Shown here: piece after piece, positions 4,982-45,026 of the stretch | How the letters are laid out: every line of letters begins with the position of its first letter | Numbering within the stretch: position 1 is the stretch's first letter | NCBI RefSeq assembly: GCF_003634215.1 | Contig: NZ_RBWX01000010.1 | Span: forward strand, 1 to 64,000 | Direction: 5' to 3' | From: Sphingosinicella microcystinivorans | GTDB lineage: Bacteria; Pseudomonadota; Alphaproteobacteria; Sphingomonadales; Sphingomonadaceae | Length of the DNA: 64,000 bases | The notes under the pieces: model-generated | The model's input: only the letters and a program-made list of their open reading frames with translations | What the model was told of the DNA's origin: nothing | The model's database searches: none | Program-made: the position numbers and the translations under genes

Positions 4982-6733
4982 ATGAGGCAATTCGGAATCG
5001 CGGCGGCAGCCATCGGCCTCGCCTTGCTCGCCCAGCCCGTCGTGGCGGCCGCGCAGGACGCCGCCGCGCCCGATCCCGATGCTGAAGCCAAGGCGATCAC
5101 CGCGCAGACCCGCAAGATGGGCGGCGTCATGCCCGCCGAACAGCTTGCATTGTCGTTCCAGCATCTCGACCTGTCGCTGAAGGTGTTTCCGGACGAGAAG
5201 CGCATCGAAGGCGACGCGGTCCTCACGCTGCGCGCCAAGTCGGCGGTGCCGGAGCTCGTCCTCGATTTCTATCCCCGGTTCCAGATCGCCTCGATCACCC
5301 TCAATGGCCGCAAGGTGGCGCCCGCCGATTACAGCAACCCCGAAGGGCAGCTTCGCATCAAGCTCGCGCGGCCACTCGCCGCCGGCTCGGTCACCAAGGC
5401 GCGCATCGTCTATTCGGGCACGCCGCCGCTCGCCAAGCGCCCGCCGTGGGAAGGCGGCACGACCTGGGCGAAGACGCCGGATGGCCAGCCGTGGATCGAT
5501 ACCTCGCACTGGGGCGGCGGGTGCGATCTCCTGTATCCCTGCATCGATCATCCCACCGGCAAGACCGAGGTCGCCGATCTTCACTACACGGTGCCCGCGC
5601 CGCTCGTCGCGCCGGGCAACGGCACCTTCATGGGCATGACCGAGAAGAACGGCTGGCGCACCTACAACTGGCGCGCGCGCAGCCCGCACACCTACGGCCT
5701 CGTGCTCGATGTCGGGCCGTTCAAGGTGCTGGAGGCGGACTACAAGAGCCGCTTCGGCAACACGATTCCGATGCGTTTCTGGTATCTGCCGGGTGAGGAG
5801 GAAAAGGCCGCCGAGCTCTTCAAGGAGTTCCCCGTCGCGCTCGATTTCTTCGAATCGCAGATCGGCCCCTATCCGTGGGGCGACCAGAAGATGGGCGTCA
5901 TCCGCGTGCCCTTCTCGGGCCTCGAGAACCAGACGCTCAACGGCTACAGCATCGATTACACGAAGACGATGTACGGCTTCGATCCGCTGATGCACCACGA
6001 GTTCTCGCACGAATGGTTCGCGAACCAGCTTTCGGTCGCCAACTACGACGACCTCTGGCTGCACGAGGGCATCGGCTCCTACATGCAGCCGCTGCTTGGC
6101 CGTTATCTGCACGGCGACATGGATTATAATGCGCTGCTGAAGTCGCAGCGCGCCGGCATCCGCAACGAGAAGCCGCTGGTCAGCGGCGAGGAGCGGCCCG
6201 AGAACTGGGTCTATGCCGATCCCACCGGCCCGCGCGGGGATATCTATCCCAAGGGCAGCTGGGTGATGCACACGCTGCGCGGCCTCATCGGCGACGATGC
6301 CTTCTACGAGGTGATCCGCCGTGTCACCTATGGCCGTCCCGATCCCCGGCCCGGCAACTTCCAGCCGCAGTTCGGCACCAGCAAGGGTTTCATGGCCACG
6401 GTCAACCAGGTGACGGGCGGCGACTACGACTGGTTCTTCAACATCTACCTGTACCGCGCCGGCCTGCCGAAGCTGGTCGACACGCGCGCGGGCGACACGC
6501 TGACGCTGCGCTGGGAAACGCCGGACAACCTGCCGTTCCCGATGCCGGTCGATGTGCGCGTCGATGGCAAGACCGTCACTGTGCTGATGACCAGCGGCAC
6601 GGGCACGCTGACCGTGCCGGCTTCCGCCACGGTCACGCTCGATCCGGGTGCGAAGATCCTGCGGCAGCTCGATTATATCGATCGCTTCCAGGCGTGGCGC
6701 GCCACCCAGCCCGATCAGGGCCGCCGCCGCTAG
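4982..6733 (+). CDS. M1 family metallopeptidase (aminopeptidase N-like), secreted
   Basis: 583 residues from ATG 4982, with GGGGAG upstream. A signal peptide is clear (hydrophobic IAAAAIGLALLAQPVVAAAQ, cleavage after about residue 24), so the enzyme acts in the periplasm. The gluzincin zinc site is complete: HEFSH at 339-343 and the third ligand Glu at 362 in DLWLHEG. The exopeptidase motif GLEN is at 313-316. Family members remove N-terminal residues from peptides. At 583 residues it lacks the large C-terminal domain of E. coli PepN. The neighbouring receptor remnant suggests it once served peptide uptake. Confidence 0.93.
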   Translation: MRQFGIAAAAIGLALLAQPVVAAAQDAAAPDPDAEAKAITAQTRKMGGVMPAEQLALSFQHLDLSLKVFPDEKRIEGDAVLTLRAKSAVPELVLDFYPRFQIASITLNGRKVAPADYSNPEGQLRIKLARPLAAGSVTKARIVYSGTPPLAKRPPWEGGTTWAKTPDGQPWIDTSHWGGGCDLLYPCIDHPTGKTEVADLHYTVPAPLVAPGNGTFMGMTEKNGWRTYNWRARSPHTYGLVLDVGPFKVLEADYKSRFGNTIPMRFWYLPGEEEKAAELFKEFPVALDFFESQIGPYPWGDQKMGVIRVPFSGLENQTLNGYSIDYTKTMYGFDPLMHHEFSHEWFANQLSVANYDDLWLHEGIGSYMQPLLGRYLHGDMDYNALLKSQRAGIRNEKPLVSGEERPENWVYADPTGPRGDIYPKGSWVMHTLRGLIGDDAFYEVIRRVTYGRPDPRPGNFQPQFGTSKGFMATVNQVTGGDYDWFFNIYLYRAGLPKLVDTRAGDTLTLRWETPDNLPFPMPVDVRVDGKTVTVLMTSGTGTLTVPASATVTLDPGAKILRQLDYIDRFQAWRATQPDQGRRR

Positions 6734-10455: not shown

Positions 10456-12882
10456 ATGAAAATTCAATCTTCGATTCGCTGCGCTTTGGTATCTGCAACC
10501 GCGATGGTGACCATTTCCGCCATCTCGCCGGCATGGGCGCAGGAGGGTTCCGACGACCGCCAGATCGGTCTCGATGAAATCGTTGTTACGGCCCAGAAGC
10601 GCGCTGAGAACCTGCAGGACGTGCCGATTGCGGTCAGTGCGATCAACGCCGCTCAGATCGAGCGGACGTTCAGTCGGAATATCTCGGAACTCGGCTCGAT
10701 GGCGCCGAACCTCATCGTTGACACGATTTTCGGCGTGGCCACGCCTGCAATCAGTATCCGCGGCTTGCAGCTGAACGACGGCGAGAAGTCGTTTGATCCT
10801 GCGGTCGCAGTGTATCTCGACGGTGTCTACCTCTCGACCACGACCGGTGCTCTGCTGACGACATTCGATGCCGAGGCCGTGGAAGTCCTGCGCGGCCCGC
10901 AGGGAACACTGTTCGGTCGCAATACCATCGGCGGTCTCGTGCACGTTCGCCGCGCAGAGCCGACGGGTGAGCTCGGCGGCAAAGTGGCGGTGACCTACGG
11001 CCGGTTCGACCAGCTCGACGTCAAGGCTGTGCTCAACCTGCCGTCGATCGCGAATGGCGCCATTGCCGCCAAGGTCGGCGTGATGAGCCTGAATGGCGGT
11101 GGCTATTTCCACAACATCACGCGCGGCAAGCGCGAAGGTAACAATGACTTCATGATGTATAGCGCGGCGCTGAAGATCGAGCCCTCGCCGGACTTCAAGC
11201 TCAACCTCGCCTACGATTATATCGACGACAAGACCAATACGCGTCCCGTCACAGCGCTGACGTCGCCGACGGAAACCTTCTGCGCGATCACACCTGCCGG
11301 ATTCCCGTGCGGACAGCCGGCAGCGAACGCTTCATATCACCGTCACCCAATTCAGAATTTCGTGCAGCCGCAAGGCCTAAAAGGGCACTCGCTGATTGCG
11401 AATGCCGAGCTGAACCTCGCCGAGGATCATGCGCTGTTCGCGGTTGTCGGCTACCGGGATGCGAAGGAATATTCGGTTCAGAAGTGGGATGGCATTCAGC
11501 TGCCGTACTTCTTCACCTACCGTCCGCAGAAGCAGGACCAGTTTTCCGCCGAGCTGCGTTATCAGGGCGAAGTCGGTATCGTGAAAATGGTTGCTGGCGC
11601 CTACTATTATGAAGCCGGCTACACCAACCACCAGCAGACGTTCTTCTTTACGAGCAATTTCCCGACAAACGCGTCGGAGAAAGAGGTTCTCGCGGGCATC
11701 CGCGCCGGCTGGCCGGGCGAAGTTCCGGGTACCGACACGGATCAGGACAGCAAGAACTATGCGTTCTTCGGTCAGCTTGACTGGGAAATCGTTGAAAATC
11801 TGAATGTGTCCGCCGGAGGCCGCTACACGAAGGAGACGAAGCACTTCTGCGGCGCGAACGCGCTCGGTCCTGTGGGTTCCCGCGTTGTCGTCGGCTCGTT
11901 CGGCGATTGCCCGGATTCCTGGCGTAGCCAGCCCACCTACATGCCGAATGCGGTCAATCCCACCACAGGAGAGGTTTTCGAGCAGACCGGCCGCGACAGC
12001 TGGTCCCGTTTCACGCCGCGCTTTGGTGTGGACTACAAGTTCGACAACGGCATGGTCTACGCGAGTTATTCGAAGGGCTTCCGTTCCGGCGGTTACAACG
12101 GCCGCGGTACGGACTCCTTTAACATGGGGCCCTATCAGCCCGAGACGGTCGAAAGCTACGAAGCGGGCTTCAAGACTCAGTGGGCTGACAACCGCGTCCG
12201 CTTCAACCTCAGCGCCTTTTCGATGAACTACTCGAACAAGCAGGAAGACGTCGTGTTCCCGGATCCGGTATCGGTGACAGTGACAGTCGTTCAGAACGCA
12301 GCGCGCGCCCGCATCCGCGGTTTTGAAGCCGAGTTCCAGGCTGTGCCTGCGGATGGGCTGACCTTTGGTGTGAACGTCGGTCATTTGAACGCAAAGTATC
12401 GTAACTGGCAGGATATCGGCTTCAACCTTGATCCGGCCACTGCGGCAGCAGATCCGTTCGTTACTATCGATAAGTCAAACTTCAAGCTGCGCCGCGCGCC
12501 GAAATGGTCGCTCGATGCCACGATGAACTACCGGCATGAACTTGAAAACGACCATGCGCTCGTCTTCGATGTCGGGGTGCGTCTGAAGTCCGATTACTAC
12601 ATCGTTGCCAACACGCTGACCCCAGCAAACCCGAACAATGGGCTCGTCAAGAGCTTCGCGCTCCTCGACGCCAGCATCTCTTATGATGCTGACAACTGGC
12701 GTCTCTCATTCTTCGGCAAGAATCTCACCAACCACGACTACTTCTCCCATGTGTTGGACGTTGGCACCAGCTACGGCGCAACGCCGACGAACTCCACGCC
12801 GGTGCCACAGCCCGGGCTGTTCACATACGGCTCGATTGCGCCACCGCGCACGTGGGGTATCGAGGCGCTGTTCAAGTTCTAG
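10456..12882 (+). CDS. TonB-dependent outer-membrane receptor
   Basis: 808 residues from ATG 10456, chosen for GGGAGGGG at 10443-10450. The frame extends 20 codons further up without a better site. A signal peptide ends near residue 28 (AISPAWA-QEG). The TonB box DEIVVTAQKR is at 40-49, followed by a plug domain (NLQDVPIAVSAI, SIRGLQ, EVLRGPQGTLFGRNTIGG) and a barrel ending in GIEALFKF with terminal Phe. Such receptors import scarce or bulky substrates. Being first in the catabolic block and preceded by two operator copies, it probably transports the block's substrate. The plug carries GGLVHV where GAINV is usual. Confidence 0.95.
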   Translation: MKIQSSIRCALVSATAMVTISAISPAWAQEGSDDRQIGLDEIVVTAQKRAENLQDVPIAVSAINAAQIERTFSRNISELGSMAPNLIVDTIFGVATPAISIRGLQLNDGEKSFDPAVAVYLDGVYLSTTTGALLTTFDAEAVEVLRGPQGTLFGRNTIGGLVHVRRAEPTGELGGKVAVTYGRFDQLDVKAVLNLPSIANGAIAAKVGVMSLNGGGYFHNITRGKREGNNDFMMYSAALKIEPSPDFKLNLAYDYIDDKTNTRPVTALTSPTETFCAITPAGFPCGQPAANASYHRHPIQNFVQPQGLKGHSLIANAELNLAEDHALFAVVGYRDAKEYSVQKWDGIQLPYFFTYRPQKQDQFSAELRYQGEVGIVKMVAGAYYYEAGYTNHQQTFFFTSNFPTNASEKEVLAGIRAGWPGEVPGTDTDQDSKNYAFFGQLDWEIVENLNVSAGGRYTKETKHFCGANALGPVGSRVVVGSFGDCPDSWRSQPTYMPNAVNPTTGEVFEQTGRDSWSRFTPRFGVDYKFDNGMVYASYSKGFRSGGYNGRGTDSFNMGPYQPETVESYEAGFKTQWADNRVRFNLSAFSMNYSNKQEDVVFPDPVSVTVTVVQNAARARIRGFEAEFQAVPADGLTFGVNVGHLNAKYRNWQDIGFNLDPATAAADPFVTIDKSNFKLRRAPKWSLDATMNYRHELENDHALVFDVGVRLKSDYYIVANTLTPANPNNGLVKSFALLDASISYDADNWRLSFFGKNLTNHDYFSHVLDVGTSYGATPTNSTPVPQPGLFTYGSIAPPRTWGIEALFKF

Positions 12883-12947
12883 GGTTCCGCGTTGCGAGGG
12901 GGCGGGCTGCCGCAAGCCTCATCGCACGCACAGCAGGCGAAACGCAA

Positions 12948-39289: not shown

Positions 39290-39386
39290 TCTCACTCCCA
39301 TTTGCCCCTTGGCAGTCATGTTGTGTTTGCAATTACGCCATGATACATATAAAATCTGACACGGCAAAATATATTTGGAGGTGGAT

Positions 39387-40229
39387 TTGAGCGCCGATTT
39401 GCAGTACGAAATGGTCCGGACCGCGCGTGGGGCGGTCATAGCGGTCGATAGTGCTGCCGACATTACCGAGGTTAATCGCGGCTCGGATGTCATGGTGACA
39501 GCCTCGTACATTGGCGTTCTGCCTGCCCGGCTGGCGATGGATCATGCGCCCCGTGCAGTGCTCGGCTTCGATGGCGGGGTGGGGCCGGAAGGCGCGGGAA
39601 TGGCCGGGGTTTGGTATTATGAGGCGCTGAACGTGCCGGCCGCCGCGATAGACGTCATGTCGATCATTCTGGGCGATGGCGTGGATGCCTATGAGAACGG
39701 TGTCGTCAGCTTCGCTAACCGACCGGCGCGTGACTGCGGGGTAGAGGTCGGCATGGCGGTCAGCACCGCCGCGCGGCTCATGCTTGATAATGATCCGGGT
39801 TTGCCGAGCGCGTATCAGGTGACCAATCGCACCAGCGTTGAACAGGGGCCGGACGGTCGCGAGGTGATCGTCACGGATTCCATCGTCTTTGGTATCGAGG
39901 CGGACAAACGCAATGTGCTGGTGACGGCGGGGCACACCGGTCGCAGCGGCGCGCGGCATATCGAGACGGTGCGTCCGTTCGGCTTCATCTGTTCGGATGG
40001 CGGCCGTGGGCGCAATGATTCCGGCATGGCGGGTCTGCCCATCGTCAATGCTGCAGGCATCGCCGGTGCGACGGTGGATGCGCGGCTGGCGCGATTGGGC
40101 GACGGCATGAGCACATACCGCGACGGCATCATCAGCGCGGCGAACGAACTGGCGCTGGCGTGCGGCGTGCGGATTGGCATGGCCGCGCGTGAAGCGGCGA
40201 GCCTGCTCGTAAACCGCAAGGCAGACTGA
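39387..40229 (+). CDS. Uncharacterised internally duplicated protein, paralogue A
   Basis: 280 residues from TTG 39387, preceded by GGAGG (39377-39381). I do not recognise the family. Two halves are related: each has a D-S segment, then (V)(M/L)VTA-x-x-(I/T)G, a (G)F-x-x-DGG-x-G loop, an Ala/Gly-rich helix and a final GD-x-x-x-Y-x-x-G-(V/I)-(V/I)-S-x-(A)N motif with GV-x-x-GM. The repeat units are about 110 residues. The protein has no signal peptide or transmembrane helix, so it is likely cytoplasmic. It starts a rightward operon (ALDH, GMC dehydrogenase, paralogue B, GntR) and is closely related to paralogue B. An Asp-rich loop may bind metal or a phosphate-containing ligand. Confidence 0.85.
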   Translation: MSADLQYEMVRTARGAVIAVDSAADITEVNRGSDVMVTASYIGVLPARLAMDHAPRAVLGFDGGVGPEGAGMAGVWYYEALNVPAAAIDVMSIILGDGVDAYENGVVSFANRPARDCGVEVGMAVSTAARLMLDNDPGLPSAYQVTNRTSVEQGPDGREVIVTDSIVFGIEADKRNVLVTAGHTGRSGARHIETVRPFGFICSDGGRGRNDSGMAGLPIVNAAGIAGATVDARLARLGDGMSTYRDGIISAANELALACGVRIGMAAREAASLLVNRKAD

Positions 40230-40280
40230 AATCTGAACCACTATCCTGACGGGCAGCCGTCACCCACGATACAGGAGAGA

Positions 40281-41765
40281 ATGCCCATGGCAGTACGTCC
40301 CGCCCTTCCGACCATTCCGGGGCTCGACAAGGTTTTCATCGGCGGGCGCTGGCAGGAATCGCGAGGCGGCGGCCTGGTCGACGTTATCTGCCCGGCGGAC
40401 GAGGAAGTCGTCGCGCAGGTCATGGACCCGTCCATCGCTGACGCTGACGCGGCAGCGTTGGCCGCGCATCAAGCCTTCGATACAGGGCCGTGGGCGCGCA
40501 TGTCGGTGCAGGATCGTGCGACCGTTTGCGAAAGGCTGGCCGATGCCATCGAGAAGCGCCTCGGCCTGCTCAATACGGCTTGGCTGCTCGAAGCCGGTGC
40601 GCCGATCGCGCATGGCGAGATGATCAACAGCGGTGCCGGCACGATGATCTGGCGCAACGCCATCGCGCAGGCCCGCGCCGCGAAGTTTGAAGAACGGCGG
40701 AGCGGTCCGCTGGGCGAAGCGGTCATCATTCATGAGCCGATCGGCAGTGTGCTCGCCGTGCTGACGTACAATGGGCCGGTTGTGCTGATGGGGATGAAGG
40801 TCATACCGGCGTTGCTTGCGGGCTGCACTGTGCTGATAAAGCCGGCGCCGGAATCTCCGCTGACGTCGCGCCTCATCGCCGATGCGATTGAAGAGGCTGA
40901 TTTCCCTGAGGGTGTGGTCAGTGTGCTGGCGGCGGGTACGGCCGTGACGCAGCATCTGGTGGAGCATCCGCTGATTGACATGATCGCGCTGACCGGCGGC
41001 ACTGCGATCGCGGTGGACGTGGTGAAGCGCAGCGCTGCGCGCCTTGCGCGCACTGCGCTTGAGCTTGGCGGAAAGTCCCCGGCGATCATCGCCGACGATG
41101 CGCCGCTGGAAACCGTCCTGCCGACGCTGATGGATGGCATGACGGGCTTTCTCGGTCAGGTCTGCGTCTGCCGCTCCCGCGTGCTTGTGTCCGAGCGTCG
41201 CTACGAGGAAGTGATTGACGCCTTCGGCAGCGCCTTCCGTGATCTGAAGGTCGGTCTGCCATGGGATTCGGACGTCGACTTCGGACCGCTTGCCGTGAAG
41301 CGTGGCCGGGACCGTGCCGAGGCGATGGTGCAGCGCGCCCGGGAACAGGGTGCCGAGGTCGTGGCCGGCGGTCGTCGCCCCGCACACATGAATAGGGGCT
41401 GGTATTACGAGCCGACGCTTCTGCGCAATGTCACAAATGATATGGAAATCGCCCAGGAAGAGGTCTTCGGTCCGGTGATCGGCGTCATTGCTTATCGTGA
41501 TCTCGACCACGCGATCGACATTGCCAATGACAGCAAGTTCGGCCTCGCTTCGTCCATCTACACGGCCGATCCGGATGTGGCGATGAACGTGGCGCGCCGT
41601 ATCCGGTCCGGAGGGGTCGCGGTCAATAATGCAGGCGTTTCGCTGACGGAGCCGTTCGGGGGATTCAAGCAGTCCGGCTGGGGTCGCGAATGCGGCGTCG
41701 AAGGCATCTTCGAATTCACCGACACCAAACAGGTGCTGCTGAGCGGAAGCTATCTCAATGCGTGA
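40281..41765 (+). CDS. Aldehyde dehydrogenase
   Basis: 494 residues from ATG 40281 (ATG 40287 is an equal alternative, AGGAG at 40273). The ALDH signatures are complete: AVLTYNGPVVLMGMKVIPALLAGCTVLIKP, the general-base Glu in ALELGGKSP and nucleophile Cys in GFLGQVCVCRSR. The GRECGVEGIFEFTDTKQV tail is typical. It oxidises an aldehyde to an acid with NAD(P). It overlaps the GMC dehydrogenase by eight bases, so the two likely convert an alcohol through the aldehyde to the acid for the CoA ligase. The substrate is unknown. Confidence 0.93.
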   Translation: MPMAVRPALPTIPGLDKVFIGGRWQESRGGGLVDVICPADEEVVAQVMDPSIADADAAALAAHQAFDTGPWARMSVQDRATVCERLADAIEKRLGLLNTAWLLEAGAPIAHGEMINSGAGTMIWRNAIAQARAAKFEERRSGPLGEAVIIHEPIGSVLAVLTYNGPVVLMGMKVIPALLAGCTVLIKPAPESPLTSRLIADAIEEADFPEGVVSVLAAGTAVTQHLVEHPLIDMIALTGGTAIAVDVVKRSAARLARTALELGGKSPAIIADDAPLETVLPTLMDGMTGFLGQVCVCRSRVLVSERRYEEVIDAFGSAFRDLKVGLPWDSDVDFGPLAVKRGRDRAEAMVQRAREQGAEVVAGGRRPAHMNRGWYYEPTLLRNVTNDMEIAQEEVFGPVIGVIAYRDLDHAIDIANDSKFGLASSIYTADPDVAMNVARRIRSGGVAVNNAGVSLTEPFGGFKQSGWGRECGVEGIFEFTDTKQVLLSGSYLNA

Positions 41766-43410
41766 CGCGGGCGCGACCGAGGCGGACGGCGGCCAGTTCG
41801 ATTATGTGATATGCGGTGCGGGCGCGGCGGGCTGCGTCGTGGCCAACCGCCTTTCCGCCGATCCCAGGATCAGCGTTCTGCTGATCGAAGCGGGGCCATC
41901 CGACAAGGGTTGGCTGACCGACATGCCGCGCGGGTTCGCGAAGCTGCTGCTGAATCAGCGCCGTGCGCGCTATTTCCAGACCGGTCCTGACAACGGTGCG
42001 AAGCCTGGCGGTGAGATGTGGTCGCGCGGACGGATGCTGGGCGGATCGAGTTCGATCAACGGCATGCTCTATTTCCACGGGCTGCCGCAGGATTATGACA
42101 ATTGGGAAGCGCTCGGCAACGAGGGTTGGGGCTGGGATAGGATCGGCGCGATCTTCCGCCAGATGGAAGATCATGTGCTGGGCGCGGGCGAGGCGCGCGG
42201 CGCCGGCGGCCCGGTCAAGGTCACGATCAACCCCGAGCGCAGTCCGCTGATGGACGAGGTCATTCGCGCGGGCGGCGCGCTCGGTTGGGACATGGTCGAC
42301 GACCTGAACGAACCGGCCGGCGACCGGATCGGCTACACGCCGTTCAATATAGGCAAGGCGAAGCGATCGGGATCCTCGCAGGCGTTTCTGCATCCGGTGA
42401 TGAGCCGCCCAAACCTGACCGTGCTGACCGGGACGCTCGTCCAGCGCGTGGTGTTCGAAGGGCGGCGCGCAGTGGGCGTCGTTGCCGATGGCGGCAGTGG
42501 GTCCACGCGATATCTCGCAGGCCGCGAGGTCATTCTGGCGGGCGGAGCATTGCAGACGCCCCAACTGCTGGAGCTTTCCGGCATCGGCTCGGCGGAACGC
42601 CTGAAAGAGCACGGGATCGAGGTTCTTCACAACAGCCCCGGCGTTGGCGAGAACATGCGTGAGCATTGCCTCATCATCATGCAGCGGCGTCTCAAAAAGG
42701 AATGGAGCCTCAATCGCGAATTCAGCGGCTGGCGCGCACCATTTAACGTGGCGCGCTGGTTTGCGCTGCAGAATGGACCGATGGCGTTTCCGGGCTTTGA
42801 TGCGGCGGCGCTGATCGCCTGCGATCCGGCGGCAACCCATCCCGATTGCCACCTGATCTTCTCACGCACATCAATGGACCTGCGTTCGTGGGATGGCTGG
42901 ACCAAGGGGCCGCAGCTTGAGGCACTGCCGGGTATGCAGCTGATGGGCTATCCCAGCCAGCCGCGCAGTCAGGGCAGTGTGCACATCACGTCGGCCGATC
43001 CGGCGGCTGCGCCACAGATTCGGGTCAATTACCTGACAGACGAATACGACCGGCAGGTCAGCATCCACATGTTCCGCAAGATGCGGGCGCTGATCGAGCA
43101 TCCCAGCCTTGCCGATATCGTCGGCGAGGAGACGATACCGGGCGCAAAGGTTGAGAGCGACGACGAGATCCTGGATGCCTTTGCTACCTATTCAGGGCCA
43201 GGTTATCACGCCTGCGGAACAGCGCGCATGGGCAGCGATCTCATGGCCGTGGTTGACAACCGACTGCGCGTGCACGGTGTGGAGGCGCTGCGCGTGGTGG
43301 ATATCTCGATCTTCCCGACCCAGACATCGCAGAACACCGGCGCGCCTGCCATGGCTGTCGCCTGGCGTGCGGCGGACATCATAAACGAAGACAGGCAACG
43401 GGCGGCGTAA
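41758..43410 (+). CDS. GMC-family FAD-dependent alcohol dehydrogenase
   Basis: 550 residues. The FAD-binding Rossmann motif is GAGAAGCVVANRL, with LLIEAG following. GRMLGGSSSINGMLYFHG is the second GMC motif and GGALQTPQLLELSGIG the third. The catalytic His lies in YHACGTARMG and the last part carries NTGAPAMAVAWRAAD. GMC alcohol dehydrogenases of this size resemble choline and polyethylene-glycol dehydrogenases. Overlap with the aldehyde dehydrogenase by eight bases and a three-base gap to paralogue B place it in the middle of the operon. Confidence 0.94.
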   Translation: MRDAGATEADGGQFDYVICGAGAAGCVVANRLSADPRISVLLIEAGPSDKGWLTDMPRGFAKLLLNQRRARYFQTGPDNGAKPGGEMWSRGRMLGGSSSINGMLYFHGLPQDYDNWEALGNEGWGWDRIGAIFRQMEDHVLGAGEARGAGGPVKVTINPERSPLMDEVIRAGGALGWDMVDDLNEPAGDRIGYTPFNIGKAKRSGSSQAFLHPVMSRPNLTVLTGTLVQRVVFEGRRAVGVVADGGSGSTRYLAGREVILAGGALQTPQLLELSGIGSAERLKEHGIEVLHNSPGVGENMREHCLIIMQRRLKKEWSLNREFSGWRAPFNVARWFALQNGPMAFPGFDAAALIACDPAATHPDCHLIFSRTSMDLRSWDGWTKGPQLEALPGMQLMGYPSQPRSQGSVHITSADPAAAPQIRVNYLTDEYDRQVSIHMFRKMRALIEHPSLADIVGEETIPGAKVESDDEILDAFATYSGPGYHACGTARMGSDLMAVVDNRLRVHGVEALRVVDISIFPTQTSQNTGAPAMAVAWRAADIINEDRQRAA

Positions 43411-43413
43411 GCG

Positions 43414-44256
43414 ATGAACGAGGCGTTGCAGCGAGAGATGGCGAGAACGGACCGGGGCAGAGTGATGGCGGCGGATTCCGCCTATCATGTCTTCCCGGAA
43501 AACCGCGGACGCGATGTGATCGTCAACGCTTCCTATTGCGGCGTGCTGCCTGCGCGCTTTCTGGGCGCGCAGGCGCCGCGCGGCGCGATAGGCGTGGATT
43601 GCGGCGTCGGGCCGGCCGGCGCCTCCATCGCGGGGCTGTGGTATCTTGAGGCGCTGAATATCCCCGCGGCTGTCGCGGATGTGATGACCGTTCAACTGGG
43701 CAATGGTGTTGACCTGTATGACCGTGGTGTCATCAGCTTCGTCAACCGACCCGCTCAGGATTGCGGGGTACAGGCTGGTATGAAAGTCTCCGAAGCGGCG
43801 ATGCTGATGCTGATTGCGGACCCGGCTTCGCCTGACGCCGCCGAGGTGACCAACCGCACGCTCGTGGATACCAGCCCGTCGGGCCGGAAGATATTCTGTA
43901 CCGATTCAATCGCTTTCGGTTTGCCAGAGGATGTCGAGAACGTGCTGGTGACGGCGGGGCACACCGGCCGCAGCGCCGTGCCTTATCTACTCAAGGTGAG
44001 GCCGTTCGGCTTCATTTGTTCGGATGGCGGTGGGGGGCGAGACGCGTCAGGCCGGCTCGGCCTCGAGATGGTTGAGAATGCAGGCCTTGCCGGCGCTACG
44101 GTGGATGCGCGCCTTGCCCGTATGGGCGATGCCCTTTCCAGCTACCACGACGGAATCATCACCGGCGCCAACAGCCTGGCACGCGCCGCTGGCGTTGACA
44201 TTGGAATGTCGGCTAGGGTAGCCGCACGCATTCTGGCTGAACGCAATATACTCTGA
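43414..44256 (+). CDS. Uncharacterised internally duplicated protein, paralogue B
   Basis: 280 residues from ATG 43414. It is a clear paralogue of 39387-40229, sharing VTNRT, VLVTAGHTGRS, VRPFGFICSDGG and TVDARLAR. Residues about 20-130 repeat as 163-273: DSAYHVFPEN with DSIAFGLPED, DVIVNASYCG with NVLVTAGHTG, GAIGVDCGVG with GFICSDGGGG, and GVDLYDRGVIS with ALSSYHDGIIT. Each repeat ends with a GV-x-x-GM segment. Function unknown. The fold is likely alpha/beta with a nucleotide- or metal-binding D-x-G-x-G loop in each half. It lies in the operon between GMC dehydrogenase and GntR regulator, so it acts in or regulates the alcohol-oxidation pathway. Confidence 0.85.
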   Translation: MNEALQREMARTDRGRVMAADSAYHVFPENRGRDVIVNASYCGVLPARFLGAQAPRGAIGVDCGVGPAGASIAGLWYLEALNIPAAVADVMTVQLGNGVDLYDRGVISFVNRPAQDCGVQAGMKVSEAAMLMLIADPASPDAAEVTNRTLVDTSPSGRKIFCTDSIAFGLPEDVENVLVTAGHTGRSAVPYLLKVRPFGFICSDGGGGRDASGRLGLEMVENAGLAGATVDARLARMGDALSSYHDGIITGANSLARAAGVDIGMSARVAARILAERNIL

Positions 44257-44276: not shown

Positions 44277-45026
44277 ATGAAGGCCGATCTAGAGCTTGAT
44301 ACCAAAGCCGGCAAGCAGGCTGGCACTGAACGGCCGAAGGGCAAGAAGGCGCAAGCCCGAGTTACGCACGCCAGCGCGGTTCGCATGGCTATCGAAAGCG
44401 ACATCTTCATGGGCAAGCTCCTGCCGGGGACGCCCATCGACGAAGACGAACTTGCAGAGCGTTTCAATGTGTCGCGCACGCCGGTTCGCGAAGCCATGTT
44501 GCAATTGTTGCAGAGCGGGCTGATCGAAAAGCTGCCGCGCCGTCCCGCCATGGTCGCCCGGCTGGATCTGCCACGCTTGATCCACATGTACGAAACAGTG
44601 TCCGAACTGGAGGCGCTGTGCGCGCGCTATGCCGCAACGCGGATGACCACGCGCGAACGCGATGCGCTTGTAAAAGTGCACGAACTTTCGGAACTCGCGC
44701 TGCAGGCCGGAGACACTGCGGGCGTCGGCCGGCACGGTCGCAAGTTCCACTCGCTCATCATCGAATCCACGCATAACAGCGTATTGATTGAAACGACCAC
44801 CAAGCTCGCGCTGCATACGCTGGCCTATCGCCGCTTTCAGCTCTCGCGGCCGGGCTTTTCCGAACAGAACCAGCATTTCCATGCTGCGATCCTCGAAGCA
44901 ATCCTTGCCGGCGACAATGTTGAGGCCTTCGAGCAGATGCGGCGCCACGTTACCGTGCAGGGCGATGTTCTGGCCGATTATATCTCAATGGGCGAAGACA
45001 ACGTCAATCTGTCGGACGACCTGTAA
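44277..45026 (+). CDS. GntR-family regulator with FCD effector domain
   Basis: 249 residues from ATG 44277, with GGAGGAA six bases upstream. The GntR winged helix is VRMAIESDIFMGKLLPGTPIDEDELAERFNVSRTPVREAMLQLLQSGLIEK. The C-terminal FCD domain (residues about 100-225) has the metal-ligand pattern Asp/His of FadR-type regulators, including GRKFHSLIIESTHNSVL and NQHFHAAILEAI. It is the last gene of the operon with the duplicated proteins and probably senses their substrate or product. A strong hairpin follows at 45038-45060. Confidence 0.93.
   Translation: MKADLELDTKAGKQAGTERPKGKKAQARVTHASAVRMAIESDIFMGKLLPGTPIDEDELAERFNVSRTPVREAMLQLLQSGLIEKLPRRPAMVARLDLPRLIHMYETVSELEALCARYAATRMTTRERDALVKVHELSELALQAGDTAGVGRHGRKFHSLIIESTHNSVLIETTTKLALHTLAYRRFQLSRPGFSEQNQHFHAAILEAILAGDNVEAFEQMRRHVTVQGDVLADYISMGEDNVNLSDDL

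Follow-up and report, generated by a model that had tools for sequence, protein, structure and literature searches.

Proteins of the Asp/Glu racemase superfamily have two homologous alpha/beta halves per chain, arranged with pseudo-symmetry, and a cysteine-based active site with one catalytic cysteine in each half. DUF1805 proteins (PF08827, COG3377), such as YunC of Bacillus subtilis and TA1206 of Thermoplasma acidophilum, consist of a single domain of about 100 amino acids. Here we describe two related proteins, paralogues A and B, encoded by Sphingosinicella microcystinivorans within positions 1 to 64,000 of contig NZ_RBWX01000010.1 (the whole 64,000-nucleotide stretch is called the window). 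Both have 280 amino acids and, unlike DUF1805 proteins, are doubled; the likeness of B to the racemases is one of architecture only (two halves with pseudo-symmetry, and a cysteine that may be catalytic). We consider the chances about even that A and B are unequal partners of a pseudo-symmetric alpha/beta enzyme in coenzyme A (CoA)-linked organic-acid breakdown.

A and B are each a tandem duplication of one small domain. A (39387-40229, forward strand, TTG start, with a ribosome-binding GGAGG ahead of it at 39377-39381) and B (43414-44256, forward strand, ATG start) are 61% identical over 277 amino acids, with an alignment score of 847, compared to a mean of 41 and a maximum of 66 in 300 shuffles. 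Within A, the half-domains entered in hhalign (39426-39809 and 39840-40226, forward strand) are 36% identical over 118 amino acids (score 171, shuffle maximum 59, z 24.5). The corresponding halves of B (43453-43836 and 43867-44253, forward strand) are 27% identical over 117 amino acids (score 107, shuffle maximum 53, z 15.2). When the halves were compared by hhalign with 51 rows (A, B and 49 relatives), the probability was 99.7% and the E-value 3.7e-26 over 121 columns. For the structure alignment, 11 of 78 match stretches were removed (stops, frame, N, length), and the remaining 67 were reduced to 49 after dropping sequences more than 92% identical. The AlphaFold2 model of B (predicted local distance difference test, pLDDT, 91.6; predicted template modeling score, pTM, 0.71) has two alpha/beta halves with a nearly equal order of strands and helices, half 2 containing one additional short helix (171-175). 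Half 2 modeled by itself reached a pLDDT of 94.5 and a pTM of 0.91; since the pTM of the whole chain is lower, the relative placement of the halves is less certain than each half. The likeness of A to B and the repeated halves, both noticed in a first-pass annotation of the DNA, are thus confirmed by the alignments against shuffles and by hhalign, and the internal symmetry is also seen in the model of B.

The first-pass annotation had recognized no known family, which holds in the libraries searched, where no characterized family is a close match. No full-length Pfam or NCBIfam match was obtained for A or B (no best stretch exceeded 46 residues), and Foldseek gave no PDB match at E <= 0.001 for the model of B or of the half-domain. 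The DUF1805 model of Pfam scores 18.6 bits for A and 20.3 bits for B, below the cut-off of 29.5 bits; a distant relative (L127; L numbers denote loci and G numbers genomes) passes it with 30.9 bits, and DUF1805 is listed for 9 of 12 family members at E <= 1 and for 14 of 26 wider members at E <= 0.01. Among the 437 Foldseek rows for the half-domain, the first was TA1206 (1QW2; E-value 0.49, probability 0.72, 57 columns, root-mean-square deviation 2.1 Å). The same structure was recovered by sequence with a YunC-like query, and a section of PMC9425974 places it under COG3377/DUF1805. The likeness to DUF1805 lies in this top Foldseek hit and in the Pfam matches of the members. Hhalign against four real DUF1805 proteins, a weak test with so few sequences, gave probabilities of 2-38% over 24-27 residues at the C-terminal helices, and by eye the four proteins have no SHGG-like first loop. 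Since the direct profile comparison is weak and does not extend beyond the C-terminal helices, DUF1805 would appear to be the nearest known family, short of established membership. PF08827 was found neither in the window's genome at E <= 0.01 nor in 249 Pseudomonadota genomes (the window's included) at E <= 0.001, and the controls B. subtilis and Methanosarcina acetivorans were detected in both searches. A and B, although near to this model in score, escaped the same search as well, so that it shows only that true DUF1805 is rare there. No Asp/Glu racemase family of Pfam was listed at E <= 10 for A and B or at E <= 1 for 12 members, and such racemases were absent from the 50 Foldseek rows shown for each model. 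In B, half 1 contains Cys63 and half 2 contains Cys202 (the latter present in 102 of 103 close relatives), two cysteines that do not fall at matching places in the half-to-half alignment.

In the predicted secondary structure, the conserved motifs (SYxG / GHTG, DCG / SDGG, LGxG / MGD, and SxxN) come after consecutive core strands, and we infer from the model that they are placed like the active-site loops of alpha/beta enzymes. In the wider family, DSxT-, SHG-, NDAG-, ARIGD- and SxxN-like motifs are found in each half, and there are also single-domain members of 130 and 134 amino acids (L020, L021). In the window's branch the halves differ: the motif histidine of half 1 is replaced by tyrosine (position 41) in all 103 close relatives, B included, and the motif arginine of half 1 is glutamine in B and isoleucine in A, while half 2 of B retains the motif histidine (H183).

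The two paralogues also differ from each other. In a tree of 103 close relatives (copies shorter than 200 amino acids or containing N excluded), A falls into a clade of eight with a Shimodaira-Hasegawa-like approximate likelihood ratio (SH-aLRT) support of 100, and B is located elsewhere. Another clade, III, comprises 25 rows, mostly from Actinomycetota (support 91), and holds the second copies of actinobacterial loci. The tree was built quickly, with SH-aLRT support only, and its outgroup branches are long. Cys63, which in B is encoded at 43600-43602 (forward strand) in the D-C-G loop, is present in 70/70 proteins of the B/core type, 0/8 of the A clade and 0/25 of clade III; all eight A-clade proteins have glycine at this position. 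Position 42 (codon of B at 43537-43539, forward strand, in the S-Y-C-G loop) is cysteine in 60 of the 70 B/core proteins and in no protein of the A clade or clade III (0/33). A and B belong to distinct lineages, and each lineage predates the species in which it is shared here.

The two types tend to be kept together. All 25 loci with two copies pair one B/core protein with one A or clade III protein (22 with III and 3 with A); this count covers 76 of the 79 close-relative loci, and L083 shows both types by tblastn only. The loci of the pairs L038/L099 and L069/L097 each lie on a single contig, and some loci come from one genome. Among 36 genomes, which were reached through hand-chosen loci and not at random, 24 have one Cys63-type protein and one type without Cys63, the latter being A-like or of clade III or, in G823 and G828, a further D-V-G type. 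The window's genome has A and B, one of each type, and no further copy at E <= 0.001. Co-occurrence of a Cys63-type protein with a type without Cys63 argues for joint work of the partners. The joint retention of the two types is supported; the complex of the pair suggested earlier is a putative one, for which this co-occurrence argues.

Several observations weigh against unequal partnership. Ten of the 36 genomes are single-copy (nine with the Cys63 type only, one with clade III only); this set includes small metagenome-assembled genomes (MAGs), a description that fits neither Paraburkholderia xenovorans LB400 nor Variovorax WDL1. A betaproteobacterial MAG (G821, the genome of L031) has five Cys63-type copies and no partner type, and G814 holds A and one untypable fragment. 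In the tree, A lies within the B/core side, so that B/core is not one clade and Cys63 was probably lost en route to A. Clade III often has Cys64 (18/25), and the partner is consequently not always thiol-free. The N-D-A-G motif of the wider family has alanine, not cysteine, at the place of Cys63, and the motif arginine of half 1 is still arginine in 16/103 close relatives. In the scan for loci, relatives were ranked by similarity to B and the best 80 of 136 retained (78 loci). As a separate observation on G821, four of its five copies have altered GHTG loops (GHNG, GITG, GHFG, GVTG).

The genes that accompany the family point to CoA-linked catabolism. Within 5 kb in the 79 close-relative loci, tblastn located a crotonase in 54, an AMP-binding protein in 44, a short-chain dehydrogenase/reductase (SDR) in 39, an acyl-CoA dehydrogenase in 30 and a PF04909-type amidohydrolase (Amidohydro_2) in 24. 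An aldehyde dehydrogenase of the window's type was found in two loci (L023 and L088), and a glucose-methanol-choline (GMC) oxidoreductase like that of the window or of L139 in one, from Croceicoccus (L023). The counts depend on the chosen reference proteins, and divergent genes escape, for example the GMC gene of L091, which lies about 2.8 kb from a family member. Names of neighbors were assigned by eye for L023, L091 and 20 wider alphaproteobacterial regions; in two of the latter (L135, L139), a GMC gene is directly upstream of the member. The full order A, aldehyde dehydrogenase, GMC, B and GntR regulator recurs only in Croceicoccus ponticola (L023). The link of GMC to the family is thus occasional, and GMC and aldehyde dehydrogenase were rejected as fixed partners on the tblastn counts with the window's proteins (1/79 and 2/79 loci). 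The first-pass annotation had suggested an action of the pair on the alcohol substrate or its acid, and had raised the question of whether a GMC dehydrogenase always accompanies it. It does not, since the window's type is present in 1/79 loci; the usual company is crotonase, CoA ligase, SDR and acyl-CoA dehydrogenase, and an action on the alcohol of the GMC and aldehyde dehydrogenase step is not supported. Of the pseudo-symmetric enzyme or binding complex proposed at the same time, the unnamed family and the true internal symmetry are supported.

In the wider family the company changes. A thiamine diphosphate (ThDP) acetolactate-synthase-like gene lies within about 4 kb in 9 of the 20 wider alphaproteobacterial regions (L127, L129, L132, L133, L134, L138, L141, L144 and L146, by eye, in agreement with the Pfam tally and with NCBIfam for L133); the nine are not independent, as four belong to one family. 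Five haloarchaeal plasmid members have neighbors annotated as RuBisCO-like and as four-carbon acid sugar kinase. In L005, the only haloarchaeal locus scanned, the neighbors match the NCBIfam models OiaX and OiaK best, below the cut-offs of those models. A hydantoinase A gene (10872-12911) stands between the two family copies of L091, a Woeseiaceae MAG, and hydantoinase A and B adjoin the member in L136 (by eye, with one Hydantoinase_B match in the Pfam tally). L086, from a 5.0-Mb assembly with the probably wrong title of a Bifidobacterium breve MAG, has a member near acyl-CoA dehydrogenase- and thiolase-like genes.

An unequal partnership of A and B could have arisen as follows. The ancestor would have been a homodimer of single domains with equivalent sites, as suggested by the single-domain members of the wider family and by its S-H-G, N-D-A-G and R-I-G-D motifs, which occur in both halves. 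In the window's branch, symmetry would have been broken within the chain, by the change of the half-1 motif histidine to tyrosine, and between the paralogues, by keeping Cys63 in B only. The partners would probably either form one heteromer, with B as the catalytic chain, or perform two consecutive steps. In the window, GMC and aldehyde dehydrogenase would only provide an acid for activation by a CoA ligase; the two enzymes are most likely a local addition for acid supply to the CoA pathway. As to the reaction, our guess would be a cofactor-free isomerization, epimerization or ring-opening hydrolysis.

Alternatively, A and B might each work alone, on two intermediates that are successive or parallel, for instance in two ring-opening or isomerization steps, with no complex. 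The copies are often kilobases apart and on opposite strands (L025, L043, L048, L050-L052, L055, L062 and others), two genes separate A from B in the window, and 10 of the 36 genomes have a single copy. Adjacent tandem copies in L030, L049, L087 and L088 and the invariable pairing of B/core with A or III in two-copy loci are less easily accommodated, and we regard separate action as possible but rather doubtful. A non-enzymatic role in a catabolic pathway, as binders of substrate or CoA, as sensors or as scaffolds, is unlikely for the proteins: members do occur in very different pathways (CoA ligase and SDR, ThDP enzyme and E1, OiaK/OiaX-like in the one haloarchaeal locus), but the conserved polar loop residues and the invariant cysteine of one subtype look catalytic.

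A role as lactonases or ring-opening hydrolases on oxidation products would agree with the potential producers of lactones or cyclic intermediates nearby (GMC in the window, L023, L135 and L139, and a pyrroloquinoline quinone sugar dehydrogenase in L003) and with the OiaK- and OiaX-like genes of the haloarchaeal locus. This, too, seems improbable, as separate hydrolases of the Amidohydro_2 type are common in the same clusters and no lactonase family of Pfam or NCBIfam was listed for the members scanned. Finally, the Pfam profile of Y-family DNA polymerases (PF00817, IMS) exceeds its cut-off of 23.2 bits in A (30.2 bits, 39 residues, window 39666-39782) and B (29.0 bits, 30 residues, 43720-43809), and IMS is listed for 6 of 12 members at E <= 1 and 9 of 26 wider members at E <= 0.01. 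About 30 residues of the polymerase palm (strand, helix, turn, helix: GVISxxNxxAxxxGVxxGMxxxEA) are alike in sequence and shape, with 27 residues laid onto DinB by Foldseek at 0.4 Å. However, the matches cover profile positions 24-59 and 30-59 of 148, and the remainder of the polymerase has no match in A or B, so that a complete IMS domain was rejected; with the catabolic context in addition, fragments related to Y-family polymerase are an extremely improbable explanation of A and B. The two families might have a super-secondary element in common. Because PF00817 is over its cut-off, automatic annotation could name family members DNA polymerase fragments. In comparison with these alternatives, we prefer unequal partners of one pseudo-symmetric enzyme.

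In the window, A is followed on the forward strand by an aldehyde dehydrogenase (PF00171, 40281-41765, Pfam E-value 3.3e-134), a choline-dehydrogenase-like GMC oxidoreductase (41758-43410, Pfam and NCBIfam), B and a GntR/FCD regulator (44277-45026, Pfam), in an operon-like arrangement with gaps of 51, -8, 3 and 20 nt; the first-pass annotation was correct in this order and in the coordinates of A and B. The gene of an AMP-binding CoA ligase is oriented divergently to A, and beyond it lie those of a crotonase, an SDR and an amidohydrolase-like protein (named by eye; no NCBIfam name at E <= 1e-20). The other flank contains an acyl-CoA dehydrogenase, an aldo-keto reductase, a thiolase and a second crotonase, and among them a hydroxyacyl-CoA dehydrogenase-like protein (by eye). 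NCBIfam gave general names only for nine neighboring enzymes, hence no hint of a substrate, and a search of an open literature library for such an operon found no description. With at most one mismatch, AAATATATTT is present five times in the window (10349, 39367, 51850, 52033, 58090), compared to 0.25 expected, and none of 100 shuffles reached five. The palindromic copy at 39367-39376 (forward strand), beside the ribosome-binding site of A, recurs exactly in the Croceicoccus locus (6001-6010), and is a possible operator common to both. An imperfect 17-nt palindrome (76% complementary) lies between the CoA ligase and A (39316-39343).

The family is bacterial and archaeal, widespread, and unnamed in the libraries searched. 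A profile search detected it in 2 of 59 near relatives, 47 of 385 genomes of the class and 6 of 398 genomes across the phylum (the window's genome counted). Relatives are also found in 13 plasmid records, with identities of about 50% in Rhodococcus and about 30% in alphaproteobacteria and in haloarchaea. Twelve of these records annotate the gene as a hypothetical protein, and the thirteenth carries no annotation. Phages gave no match to the family. In PHROGs there was no match for B and L020 and two very weak ones for L005, and viral contigs scanned with six distant relatives gave 75 pattern matches and no relative.

More broadly, and with some hesitation, we suggest a widespread pseudo-symmetric enzyme class in which a DUF1805-like domain is doubled in the chain and one branch is split into a Cys63 catalytic chain and a partner without Cys63. 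Such a class might serve a previously unassigned step in acyl-CoA, acyloin (ThDP) and branched-sugar-acid catabolism. The family sits in catabolic clusters without a name, and a defined pair with a predicted catalytic cysteine makes its function testable. Once a function is assigned, it might also offer a clue to DUF1805, for which the one solved relative found here, 1QW2, released in 2004, is still a "protein of unknown function".

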